Source of the DNA: Embleya scabrispora DSM 41855
GTDB lineage: Bacteria > Actinomycetota > Actinomycetes > Streptomycetales > Streptomycetaceae
Assembly (NCBI RefSeq): GCF_000372745.1
Contig: NZ_KB889684.1
Coordinates: 1 to 64,000, forward strand
Length of the DNA: 64,000 bases
Direction of reading: 5' to 3'
Position 1 is the stretch's first letter; each line of letters begins with the position of its first letter. Below, piece by piece: positions 9,610 to 51,074 of this stretch. Both the position numbers and the translations under genes were made by a program. A model generated the notes under the pieces. That model was not told where the DNA came from. It searched no databases and saw only the letters and a list, made by a program, of their open reading frames with translations.

Positions 9610-10152
9610 TCAGACGCGGTTGCGGCGGTGCAGGCGCAGGGCCTTGAGCATGGCGACGGCGGCGGCGGTGGAGAGTGCGGCGCGGATGCCGTTCCAGATG
9701 TTCCAGGTGCTCTCGAAGTCGGCGCGGGACTTGCCCGGGTCGACGCTGCCGGCGTGGGCGAGTGCCTGGTTGAGCGGGACGTTGATGCCGGAGGTGGTCA
9801 GCACGGTGGTGGTGTACAGGGCGAGGGCGGCCAGGGTCCAGCGCAGGACGGTGGCGGCGGTCGTGTGCTTGCGCAGTTTCCAGGCGGCGATGGCCGGTGC
9901 GGCGAGGGCTGCGGTGAAGACGGTGAAGAAGAGCGGGTTCTCGATGCCGGTGTTGATCTGCTGCATCGAGTGCACGAAGTCGGCGTCGTCCTTGGTGCCG
10001 AGCAGCGGCATGACGACGGTGGAGAAGGCGACGTAGGTGCCGGCCATGAGGGTGTTGGCCACGGCGCCGGCGGTGAGCCAGCGACCGACGGTGTCGCGGG
10101 TGGTGCTGATCGCGTCGGTGCCGGCGAGGAGGGTGCGGTCGATGGCGGCCAT
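9610..10152 (-). CDS. DUF1772 / anthrone-oxygenase-like membrane protein
   Basis: 180 residues with four predicted membrane helices (about 25-50, 78-98, 103-125 and 150-170). The AGTYVAFSTVVMPLL segment, a short polar loop with SMQQINTGIENPLFF, and FESTWNIWNGIRAALS near the end match DUF1772, the family of anthrone oxygenases and related small membrane proteins. AAGGGAG lies before the ATG. In polyketide clusters such proteins hydroxylate anthrones, but no PKS lies nearby, so no substrate is assigned. It is a single gene. Confidence 0.75.
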   Translation of the reverse strand: MAAIDRTLLAGTDAISTTRDTVGRWLTAGAVANTLMAGTYVAFSTVVMPLLGTKDDADFVHSMQQINTGIENPLFFTVFTAALAAPAIAAWKLRKHTTAATVLRWTLAALALYTTTVLTTSGINVPLNQALAHAGSVDPGKSRADFESTWNIWNGIRAALSTAAAVAMLKALRLHRRNRV

Positions 10153-46429: not shown

Positions 46430-46707
46430 AGTGCCGACAATAGCCGTTCATTTCCAGCACATTTGATGGCGATTACTCACCAATTCAGACAAGAAACGAG
46501 TACAGGCTTCCGCATTCAGGTCCTCGGGTGATTTCGTGTTGAGAACACACCCGGTTCGGGCGATGGGGGTCGTTCACCCGCCGGGGCGGGCATCGAGCGC
46601 CGGGTATCCCAATCGCAGCACTCATTCCCCGCTCGGCGCGCCATACCCGGGTACACCGGATACAACGGCACAGCTTGCGACAGGACGTGTGGGGGAGGCG
46701 CTGACCG
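46430..46707. promoter_or_regulatory. AT-richer upstream region of the terpene operon
   Basis: The first half of this 278-bp gap (about 46440-46550) is clearly lower in GC than its surroundings. GGATACAAC near 46655-46663 could be a -10 element. No coding frame is convincing. It is the only room for the promoter of the terpene synthase genes. Confidence 0.4.
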
Positions 46708-48399
46708 ATGCGCGTGCGAGATACCCGGTTGCCGGGGTGGCCTGCGGAAATGTTCGTACCCGAACTGCCCGTGGCGACCGCTCGGCTGCGTCGGCGGGTC
46801 GCCGATTCGGTTCGCCACGACGGCGCTGTGCGCGGTCCGTGCCGCAGCCGGGTGCTCGAATCGGCACTGTTGCTGCGCCTTTTGGAGCGCACCGGTATCG
46901 AGGCCGACCACCACCGTCGAGTTGCCGAGTTCCTGAGTGATCACCTGGACAGCACCGAACCTTTGGATCGGTTACTCGCAACGATCGCTTTACGCCATGT
47001 CGGCGACCCTTGCGAGTACGGGACGGGCGATCTTCTCGACCGATTTCTGAGACGGGCGCCGGCATTTCTCAACGCCCGCAAACGGGTCATGCTGGAGACC
47101 GTTCTGGCCCTGCTCGGCCCACCGCGTCGGGCCGCCCGCCGGCCGTTCGACCCACGCGCGTTCGACACCGGCAACCTGCACCCGTGGGCGCACGTGCAGA
47201 CCATCGCGCTCAAGGTCGCGCTGGCCGACCTCACCGGTCACGCGGACCGGGTCGCCCCGGCCGAACTGCGCCTGCTCCAGGACACCCAGCGACAACCGGG
47301 GGTTTGGGAGGGCAACATCCTGGTGCATCTGCTGGTGCTGCACGCGCTCGCCGACCGGCCGCACCTGGACGCGCTGCTCGTCAACGGCGTGGCCAAGGCG
47401 CTGGCCCACCAACGCGACGACGGCGGAGTGCCGTTCGTGACCGACACCGACACCTGGTGTGCGGTCACCGCGGGCGTCGCGCTGGATGCCTCCGGCGCCC
47501 CGTACGAGGTCCGCCGGCGGATCGGCGACCACCTGGCGGCGCGCCAACGGCCGGACGGCGGCTGGTCGTACACCGTCGCGGCGGTGCTCGCCGACGTGGA
47601 CGACACCTCGGTGGCGATCGAGTTCCTGCACGCGACCGACCCGGTGCGTTACCGGCGCAACATCGACGTCGGCCTACGCGCGCTGTGGTCCTACCAGGGC
47701 CCGGACGGCGGATTCCCCACGTACATCACCGGCGCGCCGTCGGAGGCGTGCATGACCGCCGCCGCCGTCAACGCGCTGAGCGTACGCGCGGCGCGACACG
47801 TACAACGCATCACCGCCGGGCGCCGGTTCCTGGCCGCCGCGCAGCATTCCGACGGCACGTTCGAACCGGACTGGAGCCGCAGCCGCTACCACGCGATCTT
47901 CCGCGCCCTGCTGGCCATCGACGCCTGCGGTCCCGAGACCTACCGGGCCACCGTCAAGCGGGCGCTCGTCGCCATCCGCGAGGGGCAGAACCCGGACGGC
48001 GGCTGGGGCCAGCAACCCGGCGACCCCAGCGACGCGATCAGCACCGCGTACGCCCTGACCGCGTTGTGTCGGCAAAACGACCCGCGCCCGGTGGCGCGCG
48101 GCGTCGAGTACCTGCTGGGCGCGCAACGCGGCGACGGCGGGATCGACTCGGTACCGGACATGCTCGGCACCAGGCCGTTCCTGTACGTGATCCCGTGCCT
48201 GGCCGACCACTTCACCCTGCTGGCCCTGGGCCACCTCGGCAATCGACTCGCCCTGCGATCGCACCGCCCCGCGGGCACCCCGCGTGGCCCGGGCGTACTA
48301 CACCCCACGACTCTGCGCGCCCCCGCGCCCGGCACCGCCGGATCGCGCGGCGAGGGCAGGAAAACTCCGACGCAGACCGGCGAAAGGAGCCCGGCGTGA
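46708..48399 (+). CDS. Class II terpene cyclase (DxDD), diterpene/sesquiterpene type
   Basis: 563 residues. The class II acid motif is DVDD at 296-299, inside LADVDDTSVAIEFL, the arrangement of bacterial copalyl- and drimenyl-type cyclases that protonate the terminal double bond of GGPP or FPP. Five QXXDGG-type (QW-like) repeats frame it (about 235, 280, 330, 427 and 473). No DDxxD class I motif is present. GGGGGAGG precedes the ATG; ATG 46750 is a weaker option. The last four bases overlap the class I gene. The last about 45 residues are a Pro/Gly/Arg-rich tail. Closest functional class by memory is labdane-forming cyclases of Streptomyces. Confidence 0.85.
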   Translation: MRVRDTRLPGWPAEMFVPELPVATARLRRRVADSVRHDGAVRGPCRSRVLESALLLRLLERTGIEADHHRRVAEFLSDHLDSTEPLDRLLATIALRHVGDPCEYGTGDLLDRFLRRAPAFLNARKRVMLETVLALLGPPRRAARRPFDPRAFDTGNLHPWAHVQTIALKVALADLTGHADRVAPAELRLLQDTQRQPGVWEGNILVHLLVLHALADRPHLDALLVNGVAKALAHQRDDGGVPFVTDTDTWCAVTAGVALDASGAPYEVRRRIGDHLAARQRPDGGWSYTVAAVLADVDDTSVAIEFLHATDPVRYRRNIDVGLRALWSYQGPDGGFPTYITGAPSEACMTAAAVNALSVRAARHVQRITAGRRFLAAAQHSDGTFEPDWSRSRYHAIFRALLAIDACGPETYRATVKRALVAIREGQNPDGGWGQQPGDPSDAISTAYALTALCRQNDPRPVARGVEYLLGAQRGDGGIDSVPDMLGTRPFLYVIPCLADHFTLLALGHLGNRLALRSHRPAGTPRGPGVLHPTTLRAPAPGTAGSRGEGRKTPTQTGERSPA

Positions 48400-49445
48400 G
48401 CACACCCACCGTCGTCGACCTCCCGATCAGCTTCCATCTGCCGAAGCTCGCGAACCTGTTGCCGATGACGTTCCATCCCGAGACCGACCGGCTGATGCGC
48501 GAATCCCGCTGGTGGGCGCACCGCCACCTGGGTTTCGCCTACGCCGGCGACGCGGCTCGGATCGACAAGAACGTGGACGGCACACTGCTGGTGTCGTTGT
48601 CCGTTCCGCACGCCGACTACGAACTCGCCCTGACCACGGCCAAGGTGATGAACTACCTGATCGGCATCGAGAACAGCCTGGTCGACAAGGCGGGCCTGGG
48701 CGGCAGTTCGTTCGCCACCCGTAACGTCTTCGGCCGCTTCATGTCCGATCTGCTCGGCTGGGGGGACGGCTCGACCCCCCTGCGCGAGGACTTCTCCTGG
48801 TTGCGCGAGCGCATGCCGCCCGCCCGCTGGGTTCGCTTCGTCTCCTACATGGAGGACTTCGCACACGGCTTCACCACCGAACTGGAGAGCTGGCGCGACG
48901 CCGGGATATCCGACTACGACACCTACATGGACGACCGCCGGCACAGTCTGGGCGTGCGCTGGCTGTTCGGCTTCGCCGAGGAGGGCGTCCCGGGCGTGGC
49001 ACTGTCCCAGGAGGCGTTTCGCTCGCCCGAGATGGTGGCCCTCCACGACACCGCGATAGACGGATACACGCTGATCAACGACCTGGTCTCGTACCGCAAG
49101 GAACTGGTCATGGACGACCGGGTGAACCTGGTCTACTACCTCGGCGAGGCCGAGGGGCTCGACCTCGAAGGCGCGATGAACAAGATCTGCGGGCTGATCG
49201 ACGCCACCGAACGCAAGTTCCTCGACCTGCGCGAGCGCATCATGGCCGGCCCACACGGCGGCGAACCGGGCATGCGGGCCTACCTCGACGAGGTCGGCCA
49301 CGTGATGACCTCCAATTTGTGGTGGGCCACCGTCAGCAAGCGCTACGAACCCGGCGGACTGGGCTGGGACGGCTCGACCGCCGGCACCATGACCTTCCAC
49401 CGGGACCGCGCCGTGTTCGTCCCGGATCCCCAACCGGGCGGGTGA
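48396..49445 (+). CDS. Class I terpene synthase with atypical Asp-rich motif
   Basis: 349 residues from GTG 48396, coupled by GTGA to the class II gene and with GAAAGGAG upstream. The NSE triad is NDLVSYRKE (N228, S232, E236). The diphosphate-sensor Arg 182 sits exactly 46 residues before it in DDRRHSLG. The C-terminal RY pair is at 316-317 in SKRY. But where DDxxD is expected, about 135-140 residues before the NSE, the chain reads IENSLVDK (91-98), with only E92 and D97 acidic. It should ionise the product of the class II enzyme; the metal site must differ from the norm. Confidence 0.83.
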   Translation: MSTPTVVDLPISFHLPKLANLLPMTFHPETDRLMRESRWWAHRHLGFAYAGDAARIDKNVDGTLLVSLSVPHADYELALTTAKVMNYLIGIENSLVDKAGLGGSSFATRNVFGRFMSDLLGWGDGSTPLREDFSWLRERMPPARWVRFVSYMEDFAHGFTTELESWRDAGISDYDTYMDDRRHSLGVRWLFGFAEEGVPGVALSQEAFRSPEMVALHDTAIDGYTLINDLVSYRKELVMDDRVNLVYYLGEAEGLDLEGAMNKICGLIDATERKFLDLRERIMAGPHGGEPGMRAYLDEVGHVMTSNLWWATVSKRYEPGGLGWDGSTAGTMTFHRDRAVFVPDPQPGG

Positions 49446-49557: not shown

Positions 49558-49787
49558 ACTTTGCCCGACCCTGACACAACGTCAAGGGGACTTCGGGGCG
49601 GCTTTAATCATTCACTCATGTAGCACGTCCATGCTGCCTACATGGACTTTCCGCGTTGTGGCACCCCGCGTCCTGCGGTTCGACCCGGCTCGCATCCCGC
49701 ACGGACGGCGCGACCGCCCGTCGCACCCCGGCGAAATCGGCGGGCCCGCGGCGAGGTGATCGCCGGTTTCGGGGCAGGCGCTCGTTG
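49558..49787. promoter_or_regulatory. Promoter region of the acyltransferase gene
   Basis: Holds GCTTTAATCATT near 49601-49612, a possible -10 region, and a 7-bp inverted repeat CATGTAG (49617-49623)/CTACATG (49638-49644). No credible coding frame is present, so the acyltransferase is probably transcribed on its own. Confidence 0.4.
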
Positions 49788-51074
49788 ATGGCCCTCTCCC
49801 TCGGCACCCACGACACCCGGACCCGGGGCGCCCGCCCGACGCTCGCACCGGCACCGGCACCCGGGGCCGGCCGCCGGCCGCATCTGCACCGGGTCGACCT
49901 GATCCGCGACGTCGCCTTCGTGTGCGTGATCGTGGTGCACGTCATCGGCGTCACGTACCCCTTCCCGGGCGAGGGCCCGGCGTTCACCCAACTCGTCCTG
50001 CACTCGACACGTGCGGTGTTCTTCTTCGTCAGCACGTTCGTGCTCTTCCACAGTGCCTACGGCCGCCCACTGCGCGTCGGTGCCTTCCTCACCAAGCGGT
50101 TCAAGCTCCTGGGGGTCCCGTATCTGCTGTGGTCCACCGCCTATTGGGCGCTGGGCGACCACGCGCGGATCCGACACGACCTGCCCGGCGCGCTGGCCGA
50201 TCTGCGCGGCGGCATCGTCTGGGGCGGGTCCTGGTACCACCTGTACTTCCTGCTCGTGTCGCTCCAGATCGCCGTGCTCTTCCCGCTCTTCCTGAGGCTG
50301 GTCCGCGCCTGCGCCGGCCGACACTCGCTGCTGCTCGCGATCGCCGGCCTCGGACAACTCGCGGCGCTGGTGGTGCTGTTCCACGAGACGCCGCTGAGCG
50401 GCCCGCTGGAGTGGTATCGCATCCACGGTGGCATGCTGCTGCCCACCTACGGCTTCTTCGTGCTGTCCGGCGCGCTCGCCGCGGTGCACCTGGACGCCTT
50501 CCACGCCTGGGTCCTGGGCCACACCCGGACCATCTGCTTCGGCACGCTCTCGATGCTCGCGCTGACCTACGCGTGGTACCGGCACACCGTGGCCGCGGGC
50601 CGGGACACCGCGACCGCCTCGATCGCCACCCAGCCGGTGAGCCTGCTGTGGGGGCCGGTCGCGGTGCTCGCGCTGTACGCCCTCGCCGCCCGGTGGGAGC
50701 GCGCCCGGACGCCGATCCCGAGTCGGCGTGCCGCCGCGCGCGGAGCGCAACTGGCCTTCGGCGTCTACCTCGTGCACCCGATGATCCTGCGGTTGCTGGA
50801 ACTGAACGGCTTCGCCGCCGCGTTGCCGTGGTCGTCCGCCGTCGACACCGTCGTACTGGTGGCCGTGGTCGCGATCGCCTCCACCGGATTTGCCTGGCTG
50901 GTCGCGCGGACCCCGCTGAGCCCGTGGCTGATCGGCCGCGAGCGGGCACCGGGTCGATGGTCGACCCGGTCGGCCCGGTCCCACCGGCGGCCCGGGCCGG
51001 CGCCGGCGGGTCAGCAGGTCGGCAGCAGGTCCTTCGCCGAGCCGGTGGTCTCCAACCACGCCTCGGGCGCGTAG
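49788..51074 (+). CDS. Membrane acyltransferase (acyltransferase 3 family)
   Basis: 428 residues from ATG 49788; the open frame upstream looks non-coding. About 10-11 membrane helices span 45-400. The opening RRPHLHRVDLIRDVAFVCVIVVHVIG has the R/H-D pattern of acyltransferase 3 (OafA-like) enzymes, and STRAVFFFVSTFVLF follows. Such enzymes move acyl groups onto sugars, peptides or lipids at the membrane. A tailoring role on the terpene is possible but there is a terminator between. Its last 64 bp overlap the convergent SH3-like gene. Confidence 0.82.
   Translation: MALSLGTHDTRTRGARPTLAPAPAPGAGRRPHLHRVDLIRDVAFVCVIVVHVIGVTYPFPGEGPAFTQLVLHSTRAVFFFVSTFVLFHSAYGRPLRVGAFLTKRFKLLGVPYLLWSTAYWALGDHARIRHDLPGALADLRGGIVWGGSWYHLYFLLVSLQIAVLFPLFLRLVRACAGRHSLLLAIAGLGQLAALVVLFHETPLSGPLEWYRIHGGMLLPTYGFFVLSGALAAVHLDAFHAWVLGHTRTICFGTLSMLALTYAWYRHTVAAGRDTATASIATQPVSLLWGPVAVLALYALAARWERARTPIPSRRAAARGAQLAFGVYLVHPMILRLLELNGFAAALPWSSAVDTVVLVAVVAIASTGFAWLVARTPLSPWLIGRERAPGRWSTRSARSHRRPGPAPAGQQVGSRSFAEPVVSNHASGA

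Follow-up and report, generated by a model that had tools for sequence, protein, structure and literature searches.

The window analysed here is a stretch of 64,000 nucleotides (nt) from Embleya scabrispora DSM 41855 (contig NZ_KB889684.1, positions 1 to 64,000), a member of the genus Embleya (Streptomycetaceae) whose genome comprises 11.4 Mb in 190 contigs. The window contains two overlapping genes for terpene enzymes, both on the forward strand, as are all the features described below. The first gene (46708..48399, with ATG at 46708 and its stop at 48399) encodes a class II terpene cyclase of 563 amino acids with a beta-gamma fold of the SsDMS type, SsDMS being the cyclase of Streptomyces showdoensis. 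The second (48396..49445, with GTG at 48396 and its stop at 49445) encodes a class I terpene synthase of 349 amino acids that is nearest to VenA and AriE. Comparisons within the genus were made with four genomes, namely the window genome and three others, among them Embleya hyalina NBRC 13850 and Streptomyces sp. SID3343. The GTGA stop/start overlap of both genes (48396..48399) was identical in all four. As read from the sequence, the class I gene has a putative ribosome site of its own in addition to the overlap, the Shine-Dalgarno-like AAAGGAG (48383..48389) placed 6 nt 5' of the GTG. The first-pass annotation of this DNA, made from the letters alone, had given both reading frames and the GTGA overlap, which were recovered at exactly the same coordinates, and its order of class II followed by class I agreed with the Pfam matches, motifs and folds reported below. 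It had also held that the two proteins are made together; the overlap makes joint production likely, without demonstrating it.

The two enzymes and their motifs

The class II protein matched Pfam SQHop_cyclase_C (2.2e-13) and the solved SsDMS structure 7XQ4 (9e-80), and contained QW-like repeats, for instance PDGGW at residues 282-286 and 429-433. Its AlphaFold model had a mean predicted local distance difference test score (pLDDT) of 86, with a tail from residue 517 below 50 that is predicted to be disordered. This model could be superposed on SsDMS with a Z score of 48.0 and a root-mean-square deviation (rmsd) of 1.8 over 483 residues, at 38% identity, and on squalene-hopene cyclase with a Z score of 39.2. 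The DVDD catalytic motif is D296-D299 (D296-V-D-D299-T; 47593..47604), and D303, F248 and Y505 of SsDMS are aligned with D298, F243 and Y493, respectively. With a DXDD motif in a modelled beta-gamma (alpha-alpha barrel) fold, the protein belongs to the class II terpene cyclases. A placement among non-terpene prenyltransferases, which the first-pass annotation had named as the result that would overturn its assignment, was considered and rejected, as the Prenyltrans match was far weaker than those to SsDMS and squalene-hopene cyclase; the protein is a cyclase of the squalene-hopene/SsDMS type.

In the 38-row alignment of class II proteins (A2), positions 296 and 298 were D in 38/38 rows and F243 was F in 34, and position 299 was variable (D 21, C 12, T 4, A 1). 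Residues 243, 296, 298 and 299 fail to separate C15 from C20 because they are invariant, near-invariant or variable across this alignment. DXDC instead of DXDD was present in 12 of the 38 rows, nine of which correspond to class-I-paired genes.

The class I protein matched Pfam Terpene_syn_C_2 (9.4e-24, 84.7 bits, with a cut-off of 23.7), and its best solved sequence relatives were AriE (9LPB; 7.6e-50) and VenA (7Y9G; 1e-36). Its model (pLDDT 85) gave a Z score of 33.5 to both VenA and AriE, several other class I enzymes being within 1 of this value; identity with VenA was 24%, and LrdC (6OH6) gave a Z score of 30.1 and 18% identity. The NSE motif N228-D-L-V-S232-Y-R-K-E236 (49077..49103), the diphosphate-sensor Arg181 (48936..48938) and the RY pair Arg316-Tyr317 (49341..49346) are kept with respect to VenA, as are VenA E192 and S214, and the NSE motif, sensor Arg, RY pair and alpha fold identify the protein as a class I terpene synthase. 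No DDxxD motif was found in the class I protein. Its place is taken by the atypical Asp-rich motif E92-N-S-L-V-D97 (48669..48686), in which Asp115, Ser116 and Asp120 of VenA become Glu92, Asn93 and Asp97. Glu92 was present in 7/7 members of the class I clade: the four genus orthologs, a paralog in E. hyalina, and the proteins of S. sp. NBC_01471 and S. sp. 150FB. In addition, four pocket aromatics of VenA become aliphatic, that is Y88L (Leu65), W107V (Val84), Y108M (Met85) and F215L (Leu185), and Gln83 of VenA is aligned with Val60 within a gapped stretch of the alignment. The first-pass annotation had recognised the class I motifs, which stand, and had overlooked both the unusual metal motif and the relationship to VenA and AriE.

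According to PMC10325987, Asp115 of VenA is an essential ligand of two Mg2+ and D115N is inactive, and the enzyme directly cyclises acyclic geranylgeranyl diphosphate (GGPP), with no class II partner, and also accepts farnesyl diphosphate (FPP) and geranyl diphosphate (GPP). The same text gives the motif of Bnd4 as DNAMVD, with Asn in second place as at Asn93, and 9LPB (AriE) also has DNAMVD. A subclass was proposed there for VenA, Bnd4 and FgGS, defined by D(S/T/N)XX(X)D/E and a Glu/Gln about 30 residues upstream, and enzymes without a recognisable Asp motif were foreseen (PMC10325987). In the class I clade the first Asp of this pattern is replaced by Glu in all seven members, though the second-place Asn and Asp97 are retained. 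As judged from the sequences, the clade is a close relative of the VenA/Bnd4/FgGS subclass rather than a member of it.

Conservation, relatives beyond the genus and surroundings

The pair was present in 4/4 genus genomes. Identities in the three other genomes were 84%, 83% and 75% for the class II protein and 97%, 97% and 90% for the class I protein, and the five genes on each side of the pair were largely the same across them. Ratios of nonsynonymous to synonymous substitution (dN/dS) were 0.21-0.35 for class II in six pairwise comparisons and 0.04-0.16 for class I in the six ortholog pairs, or there was zero amino-acid change; these values indicate that both genes are under purifying selection. 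Upstream of the pair, a conserved non-coding block that is likely regulatory (46440..46570) had 70-95% invariant columns in 40-column windows across the four genomes, and the leader before the class II ATG, which includes a Shine-Dalgarno-like stretch (46657..46707), had 83-90%. As 48% and 55% of the fourfold-degenerate sites are invariant in the two genes, the greater invariance of these blocks suggests that the promoter of the pair is under selection. The promoter scan gave no sigma-70-like promoter. Beyond the 3' end of the class I gene a terminator-like hairpin was seen by eye; the scan did not report it and the stretch is poorly conserved, so it is not claimed.

Relatives of the class I protein at E 1e-40 were found in 7/394 family genomes (five in the clade) and in 3/394 class genomes (only the window genome in the clade), and a scan of named genomes added S. 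sp. 150FB to the clade. Two members were thus found outside the genus. S. sp. NBC_01471 (plasmid record NZ_CP109451.1) has a class II gene (43%) directly upstream of its class I gene (60%). Both frames are broken in the record, the class II gene being split in two near its end and the class I gene having an in-frame stop, unless these are record errors. In S. sp. 150FB (L117), a C-terminal class II stub at 9776-9989 lies upstream of the class I copy. Of the 38 bases immediately before this copy, 35 are identical to the 3' end of the class II gene in NBC_01471 (E 8e-11). Since the stub matches this 3' end, the class II gene has probably been lost in 150FB, in whose genome class II matches were weak (best 3.2e-7). 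In the class I copy of 150FB, two of the 21 residues that are invariant in an 11-row alignment are altered (G254E and A260E), an apparent case of partner loss followed by class I change. A class II gene or remnant adjoins 6/7 members of the class I clade, and the pairing reaches beyond the genus, as the NBC_01471 pair and the 150FB stub evidence.

Ten neighbour proteins were scanned and proved unremarkable. Pfam matches were to YCII, DinB, a lipoyl ligase A/B-type family, a methyltransferase, an enoyl-CoA hydratase, an AlkZ-like protein, a regulator, an SDR and a membrane acyltransferase, and one of the ten proteins had no Pfam match. None of them matched Nudix or haloacid dehalogenase (HAD) families. 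The 64-kb window gave no polyprenyl synthase or P450 match, which bears out the earlier statement that a GGPP synthase and a P450 are absent from it; on the contig, the closest P450 match was about 42 kb away (C123:91110). Elsewhere in the genome there were five polyprenyl synthase matches, and seven Terpene_syn_C_2 matches were counted in the genome, including the class I gene of the pair, two of them sharing one frame.

The membrane acyltransferase gene (Acyl_transf_3; 49788..51074) was kept in 4/4 genomes and its link to the pair is doubtful. It is preceded by a conserved non-coding block of its own (49600-49675) with the inverted repeat GTCCATG-N7-CATGGAC, which looks like a separate promoter/operator. 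Acyltransferases are also found beside class I relatives, Acyl_transf_3 in S. sp. 150FB and PapA_C in S. sp. NBC_01471. A triad of acyltransferase and pair was nevertheless rejected, because BLASTP similarity between the Embleya and 150FB proteins was no greater than expected by chance; within the window genome, the 150FB acyltransferase had its best matches on other contigs, and the separate upstream block of the Embleya gene also undercuts the triad. Finally, a defence-system reading was discarded, as PADLOC gave no match for either protein of the pair.

Class II tree and partner genes

An initial contig scan with the class II protein as query gave no match. The class II survey covered 394 family genomes and yielded 60 regions around the better matches among the matches listed, leaving out 14 partial or weaker places (E 4e-58 to 3e-14). 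The tree had 60 rows, comprising the window, SsDMS and 58 loci (L093 and L097 were left out), and carried a long-branch warning for L041, L070, L090 and others. Neighbour genes were called with a home-made caller that placed some starts too late, including that of the window class II gene, so that neighbour lengths are rough.

SsDMS fell in an 11-row clade (support 100/100) holding all six Nudix-flanked genes and four without a Nudix neighbour. The window class II protein was outside this clade, in the other half of the tree, and by this position it does not group with the drimenyl diphosphate synthases. It was placed with its three orthologs in a 20-row clade (95/93) together with 16 other Streptomycetaceae genes, 15 of which have a class I synthase within two genes. 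The label of class I flanking, defined as 18 loci of one protein cluster whose members all match Terpene_syn_C_2 (18/18), required three changes on the tree, compared with a mean of 14.3 after shuffling, and 0 of 500 shuffles were as low, a result that near-copies favour. Further class I matches were added by tblastn in L083, L084, L089, L091, L093 and L095, five of these being loci with no group in the tree, and a class I match was present in 30 of the 61 loci of up to 20 kb (the 64-kb window counted as one). The labels Nudix, HAD, aromatic prenyltransferase, UppS, methyltransferase and MMPL were based on Pfam for one or two representatives each and on BLAST clustering for the others. On this basis, partner type appears to follow the class II tree broadly, with exceptions that are given below.

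Other partner arrangements were observed in the survey. The eleven genes of an aromatic-prenyltransferase operon (PTase_Orf2 on a representative) fell together with 100/100 support, L063 among them. In L058-L062 and L064-L069, SsDMS-like cyclases are accompanied by PTase_Orf2 and an MMPL transporter, and in 10/11 by a flavin adenine dinucleotide (FAD) monooxygenase (Pfam on representatives); these loci are probably uncharacterised meroterpenoid clusters. In L044, L048, L050 and L054, genes for a UppS-like cis-prenyltransferase (Pfam on L044), a class I synthase and an FAD oxidoreductase-like protein come after the class II gene, and these loci may involve an unusual isoprenoid substrate or product. 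In L049, L051, L052 and L053 the class II and class I genes are followed by an S-adenosylmethionine methyltransferase gene (Pfam on L052), and a methylated substrate or product is possible. Finally, L041 (E. hyalina, 7.6-10.2 kb) holds another, distantly related class II/class I pair (33% and 31%) that adjoins a P450 gene, and a large polyketide-synthase-like gene was seen by eye further upstream.

A possible reaction sequence and its relation to known systems

We infer that the pair acts in sequence on a C20 substrate, the class II enzyme bicyclising GGPP and the class I enzyme ionising its product by a labdane-type route, a reading to which we give an even chance. The class II cyclase would protonate the terminal double bond of GGPP, with D298 as the acid, and close the decalin with the diphosphate retained. 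The class I synthase would then ionise the allylic diphosphate, with Mg2+ bound by E92 and N228/S232/E236 and with the assistance of R181 and R316-Y317, and would release a labdane-related diterpene hydrocarbon or alcohol. One of the genome's five polyprenyl synthase matches, all outside the window, could supply GGPP. By established terpene chemistry, an allylic diphosphate, the usual class I substrate, remains when GGPP is bicyclised, whereas bicyclising FPP consumes the C2-C3 double bond and gives a non-allylic primary diphosphate.

The C20 labdane-type reading is suggested because the class II gene is tied to a class I gene, because partners of its clade are mostly of this kind and because its own partner is nearest to AriE and VenA. 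The first-pass annotation had proposed a labdane or a drimane; this choice can be narrowed to favour a labdane-type C20 (or a monocyclic C15) intermediate, a drimane being less likely because drimenyl diphosphate is non-allylic and because the relatives of SsDMS are often found next to a Nudix hydrolase gene. As described in PMC11035983, SsDMS and CavC adjoin such a hydrolase, and a fusion to a HAD phosphatase is described for other drimane synthases (PMC13244436). The loss of the VenA pocket aromatics could make room for a bulky pre-cyclised substrate. More tentatively, and at clearly less than even chance, a class I synthase akin to VenA and AriE may have been recruited to the pre-cyclised diphosphate of an SsDMS-like cyclase, its metal site being rebuilt with Glu at the position of the essential Asp. 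Whether an allylic diphosphate is retained in the product may likewise be hinted at by the type of partner gene (Nudix, HAD, aromatic prenyltransferase or class I). We take AriE, like VenA, to cyclise acyclic GGPP.

Several results weigh against sequential action on GGPP. The main one is the second class I copy of E. hyalina (79%), which is intact, keeps all 21 invariant residues and has no class II match within about 9 kb. In addition, the closest solved class II relative, SsDMS, uses FPP, and its F248 and Y505 are kept as F243 and Y493; the class II sequence changes faster than that of class I; and no GGPP synthase gene is linked to the pair. VenA works alone, and Glu92 occupies the position of VenA D115, where D115N abolishes activity (PMC10325987). 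The tree also has its exceptions: L046, within the clade of the window, lacks a class I match and is preceded by a gene for a HAD-type hydrolase, a 4-row clade mixes two HAD-flanked and two class-I-flanked genes as sisters, and four of the ten other rows of the SsDMS clade have no Nudix neighbour.

Some of these results would be expected if the two enzymes worked in parallel, the class II enzyme making drimenyl diphosphate, which a housekeeping phosphatase would convert to drimenol, and the class I enzyme cyclising acyclic GGPP like VenA, with the overlap only co-regulating them. The SsDMS fold and residues, the kinship with VenA and AriE and the lone intact class I copy of E. hyalina agree with this explanation. 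So does the cav cluster of S. clavuligerus, where, in the accessible part of PMC11035983, a drimenyl diphosphate synthase occurs together with the class I CavF, whose role was left unassigned, and where the authors suspect two neighbouring clusters. However, the position of the class II gene outside the SsDMS clade and among class-I-paired genes, the zero Nudix or HAD matches among the ten neighbour proteins and the loss of four VenA pocket aromatics make parallel action rather doubtful.

Sequential action could also take place on a C15 substrate, with a monocyclic or drimane diphosphate formed from FPP by the class II enzyme and ionised to a sesquiterpene by the class I enzyme. The use of FPP by the nearest solved class II relative speaks for this, and the best Protein Data Bank match of the class I synthase of the sister pair L051, the only one searched, was germacradien-4-ol synthase, a sesquiterpene synthase; VenA also takes FPP and GPP (PMC10325987). 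By established chemistry, however, class I ionisation of the non-allylic drimenyl diphosphate is hard and a monocyclic product requires an early stop of the cascade, and we consider a C15 sequence unlikely. It is very improbable that the pair is a decaying, functionless remnant: both relatives outside the genus are broken or without class II, and no polyprenyl synthase or P450 is nearby, but low dN/dS, intact frames and a conserved upstream region were found in 4/4 genus genomes.

If the labdane-type sequence is true, the pair offers a two-gene test system for class I adaptation from acyclic GGPP to a pre-cyclised substrate, and it can test whether Glu substitutes for the first Asp of the metal motif, essential in VenA. 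The imperfect link between class II clade and partner would be a testable guide to the products of the many uncharacterised SsDMS-like cyclases of Streptomycetaceae. No description of an SsDMS-like class II cyclase combined with a VenA/AriE-like class I synthase, or of the conserved Asp-to-Glu motif change, was found in the searches made of open-licence PubMed Central, and such a pair is undescribed in the accessible parts of the phaterpene and olindenone papers (PMC12860625 and PMC12453296). With its probable action in sequence and the unusual metal site of its second enzyme, the pair is a good lead for an undescribed terpene, though no new kind of system, as a class II/class I cyclase pair is a known arrangement.

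The gene order, with class II and class I genes side by side, and here overlapping in 4/4 genomes, is shared with what we take to be the bacterial labdane-related pairs, namely CldB/CldD of cyslabdan, RmnB/RmnD of raimonol and LrdB/LrdC. In contrast, the Embleya window has no GGPP synthase or P450, and the class I partner is nearer to VenA than to LrdC in both Z score and identity; CldB, RmnB and LrdB were outside the sequence comparison. The ent-copalyl diphosphate synthase of S. platensis (5BP8), which presumably uses GGPP, is likewise a class II beta-gamma cyclase but a distant one (Z score 30.0, rmsd 3.7, 22% identity, sequence match E 0.013). SsDMS (7XQ4, 7XR7, 7XRA) shares the beta-gamma fold, the DXDD motif and the equivalents of F248 and Y505, and differs by its 38% identity and its place in another clade of the tree. 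The cav cluster of CavC, itself outside the tree, has a Nudix hydrolase and P450s where the Embleya pair has a class I partner. VenA (venezuelaene synthase) and AriE share with the class I enzyme the fold, NSE motif, sensor Arg and RY pair and, together with Bnd4 by its published motif, an Asn or Ser in second place of the Asp-rich motif. The Embleya enzyme differs from VenA in the replacement of Tyr88, Trp107, Tyr108 and Phe215 and, in a gapped stretch of the alignment, apparently of Gln83, and its clade is set apart from both VenA and AriE by Glu in place of the first Asp (7/7) and by the class II partner.

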